From contig JAHDEL010000009.1 in NCBI GenBank assembly GCA_020628855.1, positions 53,557-115,417 on the forward strand: a DNA stretch of 61,861 nucleotides, written 5' to 3'. The position numbers were made by a program, and so were the translations under genes. Position 1 is the stretch's first letter; each line of letters opens with the position of its first letter. The DNA is from Saprospiraceae bacterium. GTDB lineage: Bacteria; Bacteroidota; Bacteroidia; Chitinophagales; Saprospiraceae. Below, piece after piece: positions 48,295 through 56,316 of this stretch. The notes beneath the pieces are model-generated. The model saw only the letters and a program-made list of their open reading frames with translations, did not search any database and was not told where the DNA came from.

Positions 48295-48711
48295 ATGGAT
48301 AGGAAGGAATTTATATCAAAGTTAGGGGTAGGTGCTGCATTTGCTCTCACATCTACTTGCCTTGGAGGATGCCTGAAAGATAGTAGGGTTATTGACGAAG
48401 TAGATATTGAGTTAGACTTAGGAGATCCTACATATTCTCAGCTACTTTTTCCAGGTGGATTTGTCATTACAGAAGGTGTCATTGTTGCTCGTACATTTGA
48501 CGACGAATATGTTGCTGCCACAATTACATGTAGTCATGAACAATTTAATAAGATTACCTTCCGACCAGAGGATAATGAATGGTTTTGTACGGAACATTCA
48601 GCGAGGTTTGACCTCAACGGTGAAGGACTTAATCCACTCGGTTCAAAGGGGCTCTCAATTTTTACAGTGGAGTTTGATGTAAGTAACAACCTACTTAGAG
48701 TATTCTCTTAG
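48295..48711 (+). CDS. Small Rieske [2Fe-2S] lipoprotein
   Basis: 138 aa. The N-terminus RKEFISKLGVGAAFALTSTC then lipobox LGGC at Cys26 resembles signal peptides of Bacteroidota Rieske lipoproteins, with RK rather than a twin arginine. The cluster ligands are Cys79-x-His81 and Cys98-x-x-His101 with a normal 16-residue spacer. It is probably a periplasmic electron carrier or the small partner of an oxygenase or oxidase not encoded here. The 3' end overlaps the convergent troB by 17 nt. Confidence 0.88.
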   Translation: MDRKEFISKLGVGAAFALTSTCLGGCLKDSRVIDEVDIELDLGDPTYSQLLFPGGFVITEGVIVARTFDDEYVAATITCSHEQFNKITFRPEDNEWFCTEHSARFDLNGEGLNPLGSKGLSIFTVEFDVSNNLLRVFS

Positions 48712-49477
48712 AAGATCTCTTTTTTGCGTTGGCTACTTTCATTCCCATGGTATGCAGAATATTGAGCTGACCTCCATAGGCTTTAGCTATGTTTACATCA
48801 TTGAAAACAGCGTCTGTATTACCAGCAGCGATTAATCTTTGATTTAGTAATATTACTGAATCAAAGTATTCATTTACAGTAGAGAGGTCATGATGTACGA
48901 CTAATAAAGTTTTTCCTTTAGAAGCTAAGTTTTTAAGAATTGAAATAATTTTCTGTTCAGTTGCAATATCAACACCAACGAATGGCTCGTCGAGAAGATA
49001 GAGATCTGCTTGTTGTGCGAGTGCTCTGGCTAGAAAAACTCGTTGTTGTTGACCACCAGACAAATTGCCTATCTGTCTATCAATCAAGTGGCCGATATCA
49101 AGATCATTGAGAGCTTGTTTTGCGATTATTCTATCCTCATTATCCAATCGTTGAAGTAAAGACTTAAAAGGATATCGACCCATAAGCACAATGTCAAGGA
49201 CAGTGGCGGGAAAATCCCAATCTACCTCATCTTTCTGAGGAACATATGCAATGCGCTTTCTCACCTCATCGACTTCTTCACCAAACACTTCAATGGTTCC
49301 AAAGTCAAAATCTATAAGTTCTAGGATGCTTTTGAAGAGAGTTGATTTGCCAGCACCATTTGGGCCAATAACTCCACAGAGTTTTCCTTTACTAATATCA
49401 AGATTGATATTGGTTAAAATCCTTTTATTGCCGTAGGAGTGACTAAGACCTTGAATATGGAGTGCTGGACTACTCAT
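48695..49477 (-). CDS. Metal ABC transporter ATPase (TroB/ZnuC/MntB type)
   Basis: 260 aa. Walker A GPNGAGKST, signature LSGGQQQRVFLARAL, Walker B LYLLDEPF and H-loop VVHHDLST are intact. DWDFPATVLDIVLMGRYP is typical of the manganese/zinc branch. It follows the substrate-binding gene by 7 nt. The gene order ends here, with no permease downstream. Confidence 0.93.
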   Translation of the reverse strand: MSSPALHIQGLSHSYGNKRILTNINLDISKGKLCGVIGPNGAGKSTLFKSILELIDFDFGTIEVFGEEVDEVRKRIAYVPQKDEVDWDFPATVLDIVLMGRYPFKSLLQRLDNEDRIIAKQALNDLDIGHLIDRQIGNLSGGQQQRVFLARALAQQADLYLLDEPFVGVDIATEQKIISILKNLASKGKTLLVVHHDLSTVNEYFDSVILLNQRLIAAGNTDAVFNDVNIAKAYGGQLNILHTMGMKVANAKKRSSKRIL

Positions 49478-49484
49478 GTTCTAA

Positions 49485-50468
49485 TCAATTCATTTTATAG
49501 AAAACAAAACCAAGAATAAGTAAAAGTGCTAATCCTAGAACAACATAGATGAGTAGGTTAGGTGATTCATTAGCATGTATTTCTTCATGTTTTGTTTGTG
49601 TCATTGCTCTCACAATAGTGTCTGTGTTGTACTTTAGCATCCCAATGTAGGTGCCACTTGATGCATTTTCATCACCTAATGAATCTGCAAAGAGTTCACC
49701 TCCGATAGTTACACCATTGTCTTCCGCTATTTGTTTTAACATCTTTGGGTTAATCGTAGACTCAATAAAGATTGCAGGGACTTTGTATTTCTTGATGGCA
49801 TCAGTTACTCTTTCCATATCAGAAAATTGAGCTTCAGCCTCTGTAGAAATTCCTTGAATTGCTTCAAGTTTGACACCATACGCATCACCAAAATATTTGA
49901 ATGCATCATGCGAAGTAATCAGAACTCTTTGCGACTCAGGGATAGAGGCAATAGACATATTGATATAACCATGCAATTGCTCTAGTTCCTTTATATAAGC
50001 ATCATAGAGTGTCTTGAGTTCTTCCTTTTTATTGGGCAGCAACTTGACAAATGCTTCATGGATGGACTGACAATATTTTATCCCGTTTCTCACATCCATC
50101 CAAGCATGTGGGTCTGTAGCTGCTTTGTAGACATCACTACTGATAGGTGTTACGTATTGGGTGATAGTGATTGTCTCTGCTTCAGTTCCAGAATTGGCTA
50201 TCAAGTCATTGATCCAGCCTTCGAAGGTAAGACCATTGATGAGAATAAGATCAGCATCGCTTACTTTCTTAGCATCACCAGGTGTCGGTTCGTACATATG
50301 AGGATCTGATCCTCTTGGCACTATTAGGTCAACATTGATGTGATCGCCACCCAGTTCTTTTGCCATATCAGCCCACATCGAAGCAGAGGCTAATACAGTT
50401 GGTTTTGTTGTTTGGGCATTTACAAGAACAAGTAAAGAGGAGAACAGTAAGATGAAAAAATTACGCAT
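49485..50468 (-). CDS. Metal-binding periplasmic protein (TroA/ZnuA family)
   Basis: 327 aa. Signal peptide about 1-18 without lipobox; a cluster A-I binding protein with ligands His57 (SDPHMYEP), His121 (DPHAWMD), His187 (ITSHDAFKYFG) and Asp262 (FADSLGDENA), the HHHD set seen in TroA and ZnuA. A C-terminal hydrophobic helix (about 305-325) is unusual and may anchor the protein to the inner membrane. Metal is Mn or Zn; the MntR-like neighbour favours Mn. Confidence 0.92.
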   Translation of the reverse strand: MRNFFILLFSSLLVLVNAQTTKPTVLASASMWADMAKELGGDHINVDLIVPRGSDPHMYEPTPGDAKKVSDADLILINGLTFEGWINDLIANSGTEAETITITQYVTPISSDVYKAATDPHAWMDVRNGIKYCQSIHEAFVKLLPNKKEELKTLYDAYIKELEQLHGYINMSIASIPESQRVLITSHDAFKYFGDAYGVKLEAIQGISTEAEAQFSDMERVTDAIKKYKVPAIFIESTINPKMLKQIAEDNGVTIGGELFADSLGDENASSGTYIGMLKYNTDTIVRAMTQTKHEEIHANESPNLLIYVVLGLALLLILGFVFYKMN

Positions 50469-50470
50469 TG

Positions 50471-51133
50471 TTATATAAGTTTTACAAGGAGATTTGGTAC
50501 AACAGAATGACTGAGTGTCACCTGTGTTTTCGTATCAAGCTCTACGATCATAGATCGATCAAAGCTTTGTTTTTCTAATATTTTTATTTGAGTTCCAAGT
50601 TTGATTTTCAAACCATTGAGGTGTTGCAGAAAGGGAACACTATGTTCCGTTACACCGACAAGCATACATTTCTGACCTATTGGTAGACTTTCAAGTGTAG
50701 ATTGATTTCTCAACATAAACTTGCCTTCGGCATTTGGTATAGGATCTCCATGAGGATCAAATCTTGGGTTGCCAAGGAAGTTATCAAGTCTATTAATTAA
50801 ATGATCTGATCTAATATGCTCAAGTTCTTCTGCGATGTCATGGACTTCTTCCCAAGGGAATTTTAGTTTGTCAAATAAGAACACTTCCCAGAGTCTGTGC
50901 TTTCTGATGAGTTGTGTTGCAGTTTTGTTTCCTGACTCTGAAAGAGAAGCGCCTTTGTATTTTTCGTAATGAATTAATGACTTACCTGATAGCTTCTGCA
51001 ACATATCTGTTACGGATGCTGCTGAGGTACTCACATGCTTAGCAATAGCATTTGTACTTGCAGGCTTATTAGTCTTTTCATTAATCTTAAATATCGCTTT
51101 CAGATAGTTTTCTTCCGCCTGAGTAAGAAGCAT
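50471..51133 (-). CDS. DtxR/MntR-family metal-dependent repressor
   Basis: 220 aa. N-terminal winged helix (about 1-65; YLKAIFKINE, SAASVTDMLQKLS), dimerisation and metal-binding helices (about 70-140; EHIRSDHLINRLD) and a C-terminal FeoA/SH3-like domain (about 150-220). It represses metal-import genes when loaded with Mn2+ or Fe2+. First gene of a tight operon with the binding protein (2 nt) and ATPase, and it has an operator-like palindrome in its own promoter. Confidence 0.93.
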   Translation of the reverse strand: MLLTQAEENYLKAIFKINEKTNKPASTNAIAKHVSTSAASVTDMLQKLSGKSLIHYEKYKGASLSESGNKTATQLIRKHRLWEVFLFDKLKFPWEEVHDIAEELEHIRSDHLINRLDNFLGNPRFDPHGDPIPNAEGKFMLRNQSTLESLPIGQKCMLVGVTEHSVPFLQHLNGLKIKLGTQIKILEKQSFDRSMIVELDTKTQVTLSHSVVPNLLVKLI

Positions 51134-51206: not shown

Positions 51207-51235
51207 AAGAGAGAAGAATTTTGTTCTTCTCTCTT
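51207..51235. terminator. Hairpin after the MopE-repeat gene
   Basis: A 12-bp stem (AAGAGAGAAGAA / TTCTTCTCTCTT) with loop TTTTG, ending 18 nt past the stop of the minus-strand gene. There is no strong T-run on that strand. Confidence 0.6.
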
Positions 51236-51252: not shown

Positions 51253-54200
51253 TTACTCTATAACAAGTTTTTCAAATCTTTCGATTTTTCCTTCTGTATT
51301 CTTCAAAAGGATAAAATACAGACCTGCATTTAGCTGATCAACTCTCATAGAGGTTAACTTGCTATCAATAATAGTTTGGCGGACAACCTTACCTTGATAA
51401 TTAAGGACTAAGAGTGATTGACCGTGCATCTCTGTTGCAGTTTCGATAATGACTTGTGTACTTGCAGGATTAGGATAGATATTGAATGTCAGTTCAGTAA
51501 TGTCAATAGTATTACTAGTCGCATCCATACCATCACAATTCTCGTCAATGCCATTGTTAGGTATATCTTCTGCATCTGGATTAATCATTGCATTGTCATC
51601 ATCGCAATCTTCTTCGAGATCATAACCATCTCCATCAAGATCATCATCTGGAGTTAATGGATCGCAATCATCATCCAGACCATTATAAGCTATTTCTGAA
51701 TTGCCTGGATTGATCAGAGCATTGTTATCATCGCAATCTTCATCAGAGTTGAAACCGTCCATGTCTTCATCAATCACTAATGCATCGCCATCGCAGTCCT
51801 CATCAATAGCGTTGTTCGGTATTTCTGTAGCATCTGGATTAATAGATGCATCGGTATCATCACAATCTTCATCCGAATTGAAACCATCCATATCCTCATC
51901 AATGACTAGGGCAGTACCATCGCAGTCTTCATCAATTGCGTTATTAGGTACTTCTTCCTGACCTGGATTGATCTGAGCATTGTTATCATCGCAATCTTCA
52001 TCTGAATTATATCCATCCATATCTTCATCAATGACTAGGGCAGTACCGTCACAATCTTCGTCAATATCGTTATTCGGTATTTCTGCGGAATCAGGATTTA
52101 CACTTGGATTGTTGTCATCACAATCTTCATCCGAGTTAAATCCATCCATATCATTATCAATAACTAATGCCACTCCATCACAATCTTCATCGACATCATT
52201 ATTAGGGATTTCTGTTTGACCAGGATTAATTGCTGCATTAGCATCATCACAATCCTCATCTGAATTGAAACCATCGCCATCTTCATCAATTTGTTGAGCT
52301 ATACCATCGCAATCCTCATCAATATCATTATTAGGAATTTCTGTCGCTTCAGGATTGATATCAGCGTTGTTATCATCACAGTCGATGTCAGATAAGAAAC
52401 CATCCATATCTGCATCAATGCCCTGGGCTATACCATCACAATCTTCATCAACATCATTGTTCGGTATTTCTGTGGCATCTGGGTTGATATTTGGATCATT
52501 ATCATCACAATCCTCATCTGAGTTGAAACCATCCATATCATTATCAAGATAGACTACTATACCATCGCAGTCTTCATCAATAGCATTGTTTGGTATTTCT
52601 GTTGAACTAGGATTAATACTAGCATCAGTATCATCACAATCCTCTATTTGGTTAAAACCATCACCATCAAGGTCGTCATCAAGAGTTAATGGATCACAGT
52701 CATCATCTAAACCATTGTATGGGATTTCGTTCATTTGTGGGTTAACACCTGCATTACTATCGTCACAATCTTCATCTGAATTAAATCCATCCATATCCTC
52801 ATCAATCACAAGCACAACACCATCACAATCTTCATCAATAGTATTGTTTGGTATTTCTTCAGCGCCTGGGTTGACATTCGGATTAACATCATCACAGTCT
52901 TCTTCAGCTGAGTATCCATCCGAGTCAATATCGATAAAGATGATACCATCACAATTTTCATCAATATTGTTATTGATTATTTCTTCAGCACCAGGATTTA
53001 TAGAAGCGTCACTGTCATCGCAATCTTCTTCTGCATTAAAGCCGTCACCATCTAAGTCATCATCAGGTGTTGCAGCATCACAATCATCATCTATCCCATT
53101 ATAAGGAACCTCATCATTGCCTGGGTTTATCTCAGCATTAGTATCATCACAATCCTCATCAGAATTGTATCCATCTTGATCACCATCAATAATAATGATA
53201 AAGCCATCACAATCTTCATCAATATCATTGTTTGGTATTTCCTCTGCATCCGGATTTATCGCGGCATTAGTGTCATCACAGTCTTCATCTGAATTAAATC
53301 CATCCATATCTTCATCAATAACTCCGAGCACACCATCACAATCCTCATCTACATCATTATTCGGTATTTCTTCTGCATCCATATTGATGTCAGCATCATA
53401 ATCATCACAATCGATATTAGATGTGAATCCATCATTGTCATGGTCAATGCTTCCAGAGATAGGTCTCACATGATCTTTGAATCCGTGCACCACTTCTCCA
53501 GTTTCATCATCAATAACTAGGATAATGATGTGTGACTCAAAGATGTCATGACTTGTTGGAATTTCGTATTCAAATGTATAGTTATCTCCTTGCCCAAGAC
53601 TCATTGAATTACTGATTGCTCCTTGCACGCCTGACCATCCTCCAAGTAGTGCTCTTGCTACATGATTATAAACCATATCAGCAGCAGGGACAGGATTCGG
53701 CAAATCTTCATAGCCTCCCATTGGTCCTGCTGCACCACCAGCGTAATTATTAGCTTGCGCATAACCAGAAGAAGACCCAGTTACATTATTTTCTGTCATA
53801 ACCATGGCTAGGCTAAACGCTCTTTCGAAAGTAGAGTGATGTTGGATTATGGCATTTACTGTGAGTTCACGATTGGAGATATTGTAGTCTTGTTCGATGT
53901 CTAACGAAATTGGTGATATCCTAAAGATTTGATCATAATAGGCTGGTAAAGACGAAGGATCCGTAAGTAATATTCGATCAAACCAAGCAGAAGGAAAGCC
54001 ACTAAAACCAGGAGACCCTGTCATACCAGAATCATAATTTGAGATCGCCATTGGGTCAGAATTATGAACCGCAATGCCAATGAATTCGTCTGGATAATCT
54101 GCTTCCATTTGGTCCATAAATACAGCTCCTCTCGGACACCATACACACCAAGTTCCTGTAGCTTCTTCTGCTACGAGGATTCTAGATGGTGGATCTTCGA

Positions 54201-55098
54201 CACTCACTACTTCGACTGTTTGTACATTATCATCAGGTAGTTCGTCTTCTCCTCCATTGATATTCTCTATACTCACTTCCATGTTGTACTGCCTTGCTTC
54301 AGAAACATCTATGGCAGAATTGAGGTCTACTGAGGCAATACCACCGAGAGGGAAGTCAAGATTGGCAAGACTAATTGTGTCTGTAATGGATTCTGTAGCC
54401 TTCAGGATTATATCAAAACTATTGACAGACTCATAACCATTATTTTGGATTTCTAAAAACATATTGACACGCTCCCTACTATCTACATAGCGAAAACCGA
54501 AAGGTAAGAACGCGCTATTCAGTGCCATATTTCTTGCTTCTTCGACATTGTTGACCTCTATATTGTCAATGGCAAGTCCAAAGTTCCAACCATTTCCATC
54601 TTGATATTCGAATCGCACAAAAAAGAGATCACCAGCATAGTCTGAGATATTTAATTGGATTGTCTGCCAGATATCATCCCCAATATCACTTACGCCATTT
54701 TGAATTTCTGCCAGTTGATCAAAATTTTCTCCATCTCGGCTTCCATAGATGATAGCACGTTCATCTGCACCTTGATAATCACCATTAATAAAGTATGCAT
54801 CAAAAGACAATGAAATACCACCATCTGCAGGAGCATCAGAAAGATTGATAAGAGTGGATGTCAACGATCCATTTCCGTTACCACCTGCACCAAGTGCATC
54901 ATCATTGATAGCATAAAAGCTTCCAGATTCCGGAATAGTGAAGTATTGACTACTCAGTGTAGAGGTTGTCCCAAAGCCCCAGCCATTGTCACTGTACCAT
55001 CCTGCAGGTTGGCCATTTTCAAAGTCTTCAGCATAATAGGTTTGAGCGGAGCAAAATGAAGTTAGCACTCCAAGGAGTAAGATCAGTGTAGTTCTCAT
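51253..55098 (-). CDS. Giant secreted protein: Omp28-like domain, 15 MopE-type metal-binding repeats, T9SS tail
   Basis: 1281 aa. Signal peptide (about 1-18); a jelly-roll domain (about 20-190) of the choice-of-anchor J kind; an Omp28-related region (about 300-545) with the thioredoxin-like motif CVWC (ATGTWCVWCPRG). Then 15 tandem units of about 43 residues follow, of the form I-D-E-D-M-D-G-F-N-S-D-E-D-C-D-D ... E-I-P-N-N-x-I-D-E-D-C-D-G (MopE/PF11617 type), each with two Cys and many Asp, suited to calcium or other metal binding. A C-terminal T9SS sorting domain (about 1200-1281; FNIYPNPASTQ) closes it. Probably a cell-surface adhesin or structural protein. Confidence 0.93.
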   Translation of the reverse strand: MRTTLILLLGVLTSFCSAQTYYAEDFENGQPAGWYSDNGWGFGTTSTLSSQYFTIPESGSFYAINDDALGAGGNGNGSLTSTLINLSDAPADGGISLSFDAYFINGDYQGADERAIIYGSRDGENFDQLAEIQNGVSDIGDDIWQTIQLNISDYAGDLFFVRFEYQDGNGWNFGLAIDNIEVNNVEEARNMALNSAFLPFGFRYVDSRERVNMFLEIQNNGYESVNSFDIILKATESITDTISLANLDFPLGGIASVDLNSAIDVSEARQYNMEVSIENINGGEDELPDDNVQTVEVVSVEDPPSRILVAEEATGTWCVWCPRGAVFMDQMEADYPDEFIGIAVHNSDPMAISNYDSGMTGSPGFSGFPSAWFDRILLTDPSSLPAYYDQIFRISPISLDIEQDYNISNRELTVNAIIQHHSTFERAFSLAMVMTENNVTGSSSGYAQANNYAGGAAGPMGGYEDLPNPVPAADMVYNHVARALLGGWSGVQGAISNSMSLGQGDNYTFEYEIPTSHDIFESHIIILVIDDETGEVVHGFKDHVRPISGSIDHDNDGFTSNIDCDDYDADINMDAEEIPNNDVDEDCDGVLGVIDEDMDGFNSDEDCDDTNAAINPDAEEIPNNDIDEDCDGFIIIIDGDQDGYNSDEDCDDTNAEINPGNDEVPYNGIDDDCDAATPDDDLDGDGFNAEEDCDDSDASINPGAEEIINNNIDENCDGIIFIDIDSDGYSAEEDCDDVNPNVNPGAEEIPNNTIDEDCDGVVLVIDEDMDGFNSDEDCDDSNAGVNPQMNEIPYNGLDDDCDPLTLDDDLDGDGFNQIEDCDDTDASINPSSTEIPNNAIDEDCDGIVVYLDNDMDGFNSDEDCDDNDPNINPDATEIPNNDVDEDCDGIAQGIDADMDGFLSDIDCDDNNADINPEATEIPNNDIDEDCDGIAQQIDEDGDGFNSDEDCDDANAAINPGQTEIPNNDVDEDCDGVALVIDNDMDGFNSDEDCDDNNPSVNPDSAEIPNNDIDEDCDGTALVIDEDMDGYNSDEDCDDNNAQINPGQEEVPNNAIDEDCDGTALVIDEDMDGFNSDEDCDDTDASINPDATEIPNNAIDEDCDGDALVIDEDMDGFNSDEDCDDNNALINPGNSEIAYNGLDDDCDPLTPDDDLDGDGYDLEEDCDDDNAMINPDAEDIPNNGIDENCDGMDATSNTIDITELTFNIYPNPASTQVIIETATEMHGQSLLVLNYQGKVVRQTIIDSKLTSMRVDQLNAGLYFILLKNTEGKIERFEKLVIE
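51520..53448 (-). repeat. 15 tandem 129-bp repeats inside the MopE gene
   Basis: The 43-residue coding unit repeats 15 times. Units 3, 6 and 14 carry a variant ending (Y-N-G-I/L-D-D-D-C-D then extra D-D-D), so the array contains two unit classes, which suggests block duplications. Opposite-strand open frames over it are by-products. Confidence 0.95.
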
Positions 55099-55419: not shown

Positions 55420-56316
55420 ATGAAACAATTAGTTAGTCTTTTTACACATCCTTCAACAGTAGTAATCACATTCACATTCCTTCTGATCGTCACATTTGCA
55501 AATTGTCAAACACATTGGGTAGGAGGAACTCCAGGTAGTGAGTCAGATTGGAACACCTCCGGAAATTGGTCAACAGGAAGTGTGCCAGGTCTCCATGATC
55601 AGGTCATCATAGCTTCGCCTGATTCCAACCTGCCTTATATCCCAATTATTGATGAGGTTGTAGAGCCGATCGCACATCTATCCTTACTCGGTAATGTTGA
55701 GCTAAAAGTAGATCATGGTGGCAAATTAATAATTAATGGCAGTAGTGACTTTAATTATGGGGTGTTCAATCAAGGGCGATTAACAGTGTTCGGAGAATTA
55801 CAAATTCTTGATACAGGGAAAGCAGCTTGTCGATGTGAAGGAGGGAGAATTGATTTTGGAAAAGAGCATATAGTTTACTCCTATATATCGAATACAGAAG
55901 GACAAGATAACTGCAACTTGCTGAATGATTTCTCAGAGTTATTGGCCAGAGTGAAAGATTTAGAACAGGTGACGGATACTGGTATTGCCAATGCAGAATG
56001 GAATCTCGTCAGAAAAGCATTAGCAGAATATCTTGACATCCAAGATGAAACAGCTGAGAACTATGCAGATCGCATGTATCAATATGCAAATGCCTGTTAT
56101 TACACAGAAGACTATAGTGCAGCAATAGAAGCCTATGACGCTATACTGCAGCGATTGGATGTAGAAAAAACCGTCCTATATAGTGCACAATTTGATAAGG
56201 CGATGATTATGAATCAGATTGATAAAAACGATTCACTCATACTCTTCACATCTATTGCTAATAACTATGACCACCCATACCACAGAGATGCTAAGTCTAT
56301 AGTTGAGCGATTCTAA
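55420..56316 (+). CDS. Secreted protein with G8-like N-terminus and TPR-like C-terminus
   Basis: 298 aa. Signal peptide (about 1-29, ending FANCQ). The N-terminal part has the W-N-T-S-G-N-W-S-T-G-S-V-P pattern and beta-rich strands typical of secreted parallel-beta surface proteins; a Cys pair (CRCEGG) follows. From about 190 on it turns helical with TPR-like ANACYYTEDYSAAIEAYDAIL. No sorting domain, so probably periplasmic. It ends at a good terminator. Function unknown. Confidence 0.78.
   Translation: MKQLVSLFTHPSTVVITFTFLLIVTFANCQTHWVGGTPGSESDWNTSGNWSTGSVPGLHDQVIIASPDSNLPYIPIIDEVVEPIAHLSLLGNVELKVDHGGKLIINGSSDFNYGVFNQGRLTVFGELQILDTGKAACRCEGGRIDFGKEHIVYSYISNTEGQDNCNLLNDFSELLARVKDLEQVTDTGIANAEWNLVRKALAEYLDIQDETAENYADRMYQYANACYYTEDYSAAIEAYDAILQRLDVEKTVLYSAQFDKAMIMNQIDKNDSLILFTSIANNYDHPYHRDAKSIVERF

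Follow-up and report, generated by a model that had tools for sequence, protein, structure and literature searches.

The locus studied here raises the question of what a thioredoxin domain does when it is joined in one chain to a long array of cysteine-containing MopE repeats, and in particular whether it folds those repeats itself. The locus lies in a 61,861-nucleotide stretch of DNA from a Saprospiraceae bacterium (NCBI GenBank assembly GCA_020628855.1, contig JAHDEL010000009.1, positions 53,557 to 115,417 of the forward strand), which is called the window below and is numbered from its first letter. An intact open reading frame (ORF) with an ATG start, 51253..55098(-), encodes a thioredoxin-MopE fusion of 1281 amino acids (aa) that ends in a tail of the type IX secretion system (T9SS). 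Its parts follow one another in the order signal peptide, MAM-like domain, Ig-like linker, Omp28/HBP35-type thioredoxin domain with the motif CVWC, 15 MopE repeats and T9SS tail. It was concluded that this protein is probably a surface thioredoxin carried on a Ca2+-binding, disulfide-braced stalk, that is, a lineage-specific modular exoprotein. The fusion is best read as a lineage-specific domain shuffle, in which a MopE array was set between the thioredoxin domain and the T9SS tail.

The features of this gene are as follows.

55042..55098 (-): putative Sec signal peptide, aa 1-19, an N-terminal hydrophobic stretch recognized by eye
54544..55035 (-): MAM-like (choice-of-anchor-J) beta-sandwich, about aa 22-185, from a weak sequence match and a structure match
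54199..54537 (-): Ig-like beta linker, about aa 188-300, from AlphaFold2 strands with a predicted local distance difference test (pLDDT) mostly above 80; name and boundaries by eye
53446..54198 (-): Omp28/HBP35-type thioredoxin domain, aa 301-551, from profile and structure matches
54136..54147 (-): CVWC, aa 318-321, a CxxC at the N-terminal end of the first thioredoxin-domain helix
51511..53445 (-): 15 MopE (PF11617) repeats, aa 552-1196, from Pfam, with Cys at repeat positions 13 and 36
51259..51480 (-): T9SS type A C-terminal sorting domain, aa 1207-1280 (PF18962, TIGR04183)
51207..51235 (-): hairpin with a 12-pair stem directly past the stop codon, a possible terminator

The MopE family PF11617 was matched in 15 stretches (E 4.6e-116, 379 bits against a Pfam cut-off of 27), and the tail exceeded its cut-offs with both PF18962 (39.7 against 27) and TIGR04183 (35 against 23). 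The Omp28 profile PF11551 scored 34.5 in hmmscan, slightly below the gathering score of 34.9, and 39 bits, above the cut-off, in a six-frame search of the organism's own genome. For the MAM-like domain, both PF00629 (16.5 bits against 26.4) and NF038128 (17.3 bits) remained below the cut-off. The original prediction for this DNA, made from its letters alone, had described an Omp28-like thioredoxin region joined to 15 MopE repeats and a T9SS tail, and this was confirmed by translation of the ORF and by Pfam. That description included neither the MAM-like domain at the N-terminus nor the linker of Ig-like type. The protein contains 33 cysteines, two of which form part of CVWC and one of which, at position 16, lies in the signal peptide as judged by eye; the repeats hold exactly 30, two in each, where about 30 had been predicted.

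The repeats begin at aa 552 with a spacing of 43 aa (one of 42). The dense Asp-rich array that had been predicted was borne out by its composition, since its 645 aa include 233 Asp or Glu residues, no Lys or Arg, one His and no Trp. When a profile blind to cysteines was used, both cysteines, at positions 13 and 36, were found in 153 of 154 ungapped repeats from 33 ORFs, and the sole exception was a one-residue register slip. These 154 repeats remained from 246 matches after 79 short or weak ones and 13 that were not 38 aa long had been left out. The same pair was present in five complete-ORF proteins with exactly one Pfam MopE stretch (L020, L138, L143, L145 and L146). Provided that the two cysteines form a disulfide within the domain, their retention in single-repeat proteins places both partners in the same repeat. 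This supports one predicted disulfide inside each repeat (C13-C36), so the disulfides that the original prediction had proposed for the two cysteines of each repeat most likely have these partners.

In 145 distinct repeats, selected for Cys 13, the conserved columns were C36 (100%), D12 (99%), D1, D3 and D5 (98%) and G6 (95%). The spacing D1/D3/D5/G6/D12 is that of a calcium loop. Animal thrombospondin type 3 repeats also combine Asp-rich calcium loops with regularly placed disulfides, although their repeat length is different. Within the array, the mean aa identity between repeats was 68%, and identical residues shared their codon with a frequency of 0.593, compared with 0.587 expected from codon usage. 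Therefore, the array did not arise by a recent amplification of DNA; it is the protein sequence that has been conserved. A three-repeat period of 387 bases was reported by Tandem Repeats Finder in 51511-53445, and repeats 3-4, 6-7 and 14-15 were seen by eye to have the variant link YNG(I/L)DDDCD..T.DDDLDGDG in common.

An AlphaFold2 model of the N-terminal part with three repeats was built with 55 relatives and was confident across the MAM-like, Ig-like and thioredoxin parts. The thioredoxin part was closest to HBP35 of Porphyromonas gingivalis (5y1a; Z 23.8, root-mean-square deviation (rmsd) 2.5, 222 residues, 13% identity), and the second structure match was 2axo (Z 17.6, rmsd 4.4, 197 residues). 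The structure 5y1a was also the top PDB sequence match (E 1e-4) of a profile of eight sequences, the window protein and seven relatives. The CxxC occupied model residues 300-303 and was followed by a helix at 304-316; this placement at the helix N-terminus in a thioredoxin fold is that of the HBP35 type. The MAM-like part matched meprin beta (4gwm; Z 16.2, rmsd 2.7, 150 residues) and the cleaved adhesin domains of the gingipain Kgp (Z about 13; 4itc, Z 13.2).

A G-x-P loop, presumably the cis-proline loop, was invariant in eight aligned proteins. The CxxC was invariant in 56 aligned proteins; the rows of the alignments (A1 and A2) were chosen by this motif, and the invariance is thus partly selection. 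The CxxC was also present in the Omp28 domains that were read without motif choice, namely L034, L036, L038, L039 and L056, which were the readable domains out of 13 loci examined (the other eight had no readable domain), and L168-L171. Because of its presence in these domains, redox chemistry is probably kept. In PMC2907840, HBP35 is reported to reduce insulin, for which both active-site cysteines are needed, and complementation of an E. coli dsbA mutant by the HBP35 gene is also reported.

If the protein is indeed a surface thioredoxin on a stalk, it would pass the inner membrane through Sec and then the outer membrane through the T9SS. In each 43-aa repeat, one internal disulfide, C13-C36, would form, and about one Ca2+ (or similar divalent cation) would be bound in an EF-hand-like loop D1-x-D3-x-D5-G6-...-D12. 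The array would thereby turn into a stiff acidic stalk that keeps the MAM-Ig-thioredoxin head off the cell surface, where CVWC could exchange thiols and disulfides with external substrates, like HBP35 in vitro. The stalk cysteines would be oxidized by the general periplasmic route before export and not by CVWC in particular. If this is true, the widespread MopE repeats of Bacteroidota exoproteins can be pictured as interchangeable stalks, stiffened by calcium and disulfides, that usually sit directly ahead of the T9SS tail. The fusion described here is one of many shuffled combinations.

HBP35 resembles the window protein in its thioredoxin-type CxxC domain of the same fold (Z 23.8), and is also reported to have a C-terminal domain and to be secreted in a Por/T9SS-dependent way. 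Hemin binding is reported for HBP35 as well. However, its 344 aa would leave no room for a MAM-like head or for repeats. MopE of Methylococcus capsulatus (2vov) contains in residues 6-44 one repeat with the same cysteine spacing, but this is the single repeat of the 2vov chain, and the copper site is described as lying elsewhere in the protein (PMC3423442). According to two reports, the N-terminal 46 residues of MopE*, which hold one repeat, were invisible in the crystal, and Ca2+ protected MopE* from proteolysis (PMC3423442, PMC3912023).

Several observations weigh against the proposed stalk and its redox-active head. AlphaFold2 left the repeats unfolded in the model of the N-terminal part with three repeats, with pLDDT below 50 over aa 555-682. 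Three repeats alone, with nine further self-windows, gave a mean pLDDT of 46 and no residue above 70. The loop and cysteine pattern is conserved, as in stalks of the thrombospondin type 3 kind, but the repeats were unfolded in both models. Among the 50 structure matches listed, no EF-hand or type 3 repeat entry was recognized, which carries no weight given that the repeats were not folded in the model. The repeat region of MopE*, invisible in the crystal and with its first 24 residues implicated in weak Cu(II) binding (PMC3423442), would also fit a flexible metal-binding tail. The redox activity of the head is suggested by analogy with HBP35 at 13% identity, and the conservation of the CxxC is weaker evidence than it appears because most of the aligned relatives were picked by that motif. 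Stalk structure, Ca2+ binding and disulfides are all predictions, as are export and the position at the cell surface. Alignment windows of five repeats were dropped, being aligned out of register.

The distribution of the two halves of the protein was studied in relatives. In the own genome, MopE repeats were found on nine proteins (one split by an assembly gap), including G8/CEMIP, M36 protease, Kelch, LRR, vanadium-peroxidase-like and SprB-repeat proteins. Omp28 domains were found on six proteins (five above the cut-off), and only the window protein had both. Its nearest relative is a paralogue from the same genome, C46, of 640 aa and without MopE, with 47.5% identity over 528 residues. In the tree, C46 was its sister with support 92/88; that branch was unstarred, and the enclosing starred clade includes a MopE-less protein of a congener. 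Omp28-type T9SS proteins such as C46 share with the window protein the MAM-like and Ig-like parts, a TGTWCxWCPRG domain and the T9SS tail, but differ from it in lacking MopE. At least 577 Omp28 relatives were confirmed, and no MopE was found in the 80 best of them; 78 of these 80 were readable to the T9SS tail, while L075 and L080 reached a contig edge before it. The sole MopE regex match among these 80 loci, 'NDCNDK' in L102, was rejected as not being a repeat.

In 61 genomes of the family, 27 strong Omp28 matches (E 3.2e-60 or better) were obtained besides the window protein. No MopE was noted in these: 25 of the ORFs were at most 692 aa long and were judged by length, so that one or two repeats could hide in them, and the two of about 900 aa were read and contained none. 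A junction query against 150 family genomes gave no MopE ORF with CxxC in 11 fetched regions; these were five non-window matches, among those listed, that reached leftwards over the Omp28 side (query start <=20), and six more. A fusion of Omp28 or thioredoxin with MopE was not named in the titles or abstract openings of the literature searched. Thus, the search for further Omp28-MopE fusions, proposed with the original prediction, yielded no second one, and it yielded one fusion of another thioredoxin with MopE. The latter, L174 (G002:C74; 970-3789(-)), comes from a congener and likewise combines a CxxC thioredoxin domain with nine MopE repeats and a T9SS tail. However, its domain is of the PF00085 type and has no significant BLASTP similarity to the Omp28 domain of the window protein; therefore, L174 is an independent fusion. 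One further candidate of the own genome, C25 (L017:739-4308(+)), has three MopE repeats behind a possible CxxC-less Omp28 relative; its hhalign probability of 69.7% was suggestive, and it was not used as evidence. Taken together, the Omp28/HBP35-type exoprotein is common in Bacteroidota and both halves are common but usually apart. Their combination is unusual, and the architecture was found nowhere else in what was searched, its parts being known.

Among the alternatives, a passive spacer or adhesin was considered unlikely. It would bind polysaccharide or a Ca2+-bridged matrix with its acidic array and MAM-like head, and its CVWC would be inherited and have no special redox role. The likeness of the MAM-like head to the Kgp cleaved adhesin domains (4itc) agrees with this explanation, as does the presence of MopE arrays on many kinds of exoproteins, whereas the CxxC in the nine Omp28 domains read without motif choice argues against it, with C25 of the own genome as a possible exception.

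A role of the array in storing metal or binding copper, by which copper or manganese/zinc would be sequestered together with the adjacent MntR/ZnuA/ABC genes, appeared improbable. The family name points in this direction, a 24-residue piece of MopE* is implicated in weak Cu(II) binding (PMC3423442), and metal-transport genes adjoin on the same strand. However, the Cu(I) site of MopE*/CorA is described in PMC3423442 and PMC3912023 as two His and kynurenine, and these two His and an oxidized Trp are not available in the array, the part examined, which has one His and no Trp. The composition of the array therefore gives no reason to expect copper as its metal, and if the stalk reading is right, 'Cu-binding' as a family name should not be transferred to such arrays. 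The fusion gene and the MntR-like gene are also separated by a strong hairpin, although a consensus terminator scan did not list it; the folding energy of the 66-nt piece is -19.4 kcal/mol (z -4.24). Moreover, congener G001 has the MntR operon without a fusion gene beside it, the MntR-ZnuA-ABC genes standing side by side with response-regulator/kinase genes. Given this layout and the stable hairpin after the gene, the metal-transport neighbourhood is probably incidental.

These adjoining genes, 48695-51133(-), encode an MntR/DtxR-like regulator, a ZnuA-like binding protein, whose C-terminus has a hydrophobic stretch as judged by eye, and an ABC ATPase; no permease gene directly adjoins them. 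The same three-gene order was observed in congeners G001 (L161) and G003 (L162).

The original prediction had also proposed that CVWC acts in cis, oxidizing or isomerizing the 15 cysteine pairs so that the fibre folds itself. This claim found no support and was judged very improbable. It draws on the presence of CVWC and 30 repeat cysteines in one chain, on the reported capacity of HBP35 to aid the formation of disulfides in an E. coli dsbA background (cited in PMC2907840) and on L174, where an unrelated PF00085 thioredoxin (WCGPC) is joined to a MopE array in the same genus. If the idea were true, an enrichment of thioredoxins on MopE proteins would be expected, because CVWC would serve the repeats. 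However, a thioredoxin-type CxxC was found in 2 of 46 MopE proteins (the window protein and L174) compared with 7 of 104 T9SS ORFs (Fisher one-sided p 0.82). The value was 0.79 with the window protein and the other own-genome MopE proteins removed from the background. In the own genome only, 1 of 7 MopE T9SS ORFs and 6 of 97 others were positive (p 0.40).

The 46 MopE proteins remained from 53 regex ORFs (>200 aa, not all Pfam-confirmed) after removal of six that were truncated at the 5' end and of one that forms the latter half of a gene with a gap; the set is non-random, many of its members having been fetched for matching the window protein or its junction. The 104 T9SS ORFs came from 150 listed tails (150 scored of 244 candidates) of one genome, and ten of them were cut at the 5' end. 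The motif [WYFH]CxxC was run on both sets and its matches were judged by eye, one being set aside in each (C67, L172). With a small test, a non-random MopE set and a one-genome background, a weak thioredoxin-MopE association may still exist, and the best remaining argument for it is that one genus contains two fusions of independent origin.

Each half also occurs apart from the other, which argues against folding in cis. Kelch, LRR, M36 protease, G8/CEMIP, sulfatase and vanadium-peroxidase-like proteins carry MopE without a thioredoxin-type CxxC, and so do L140 and L172 with 13 Pfam repeats (FCLLC and CGAC of L172 being set aside by eye). The five single-repeat proteins with the conserved cysteine pair also belong to the MopE carriers that lack CxxC. 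Conversely, C46 and its best 80 relatives (78 readable to the tail) are CVWC-type proteins without MopE. In addition, the nearest repeat cysteine is 243 residues from CVWC and the farthest 867, and a DsbA-like protein with CSWC encoded elsewhere in the genome could act in trans. VKOR was not found in the own genome. That the joining of thioredoxin folds (Omp28-type here, PF00085-type in L174) to MopE is adaptive, with the head setting the redox state of its own or neighbouring stalks and thereby tuning stiffness or metal affinity, seems the least probable of all.

On the other side of the fusion gene, the divergent neighbour 55420-56316(+) encodes a small exported protein whose C-terminus is weakly TPR-like, and a partial homologue was found in G001 on the other side of the kinase/subtilase genes. 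The own genome (G000), 3.4 Mb in size, has at least 150 matches to the T9SS tail, 244 candidates having been obtained and 150 of them scored.

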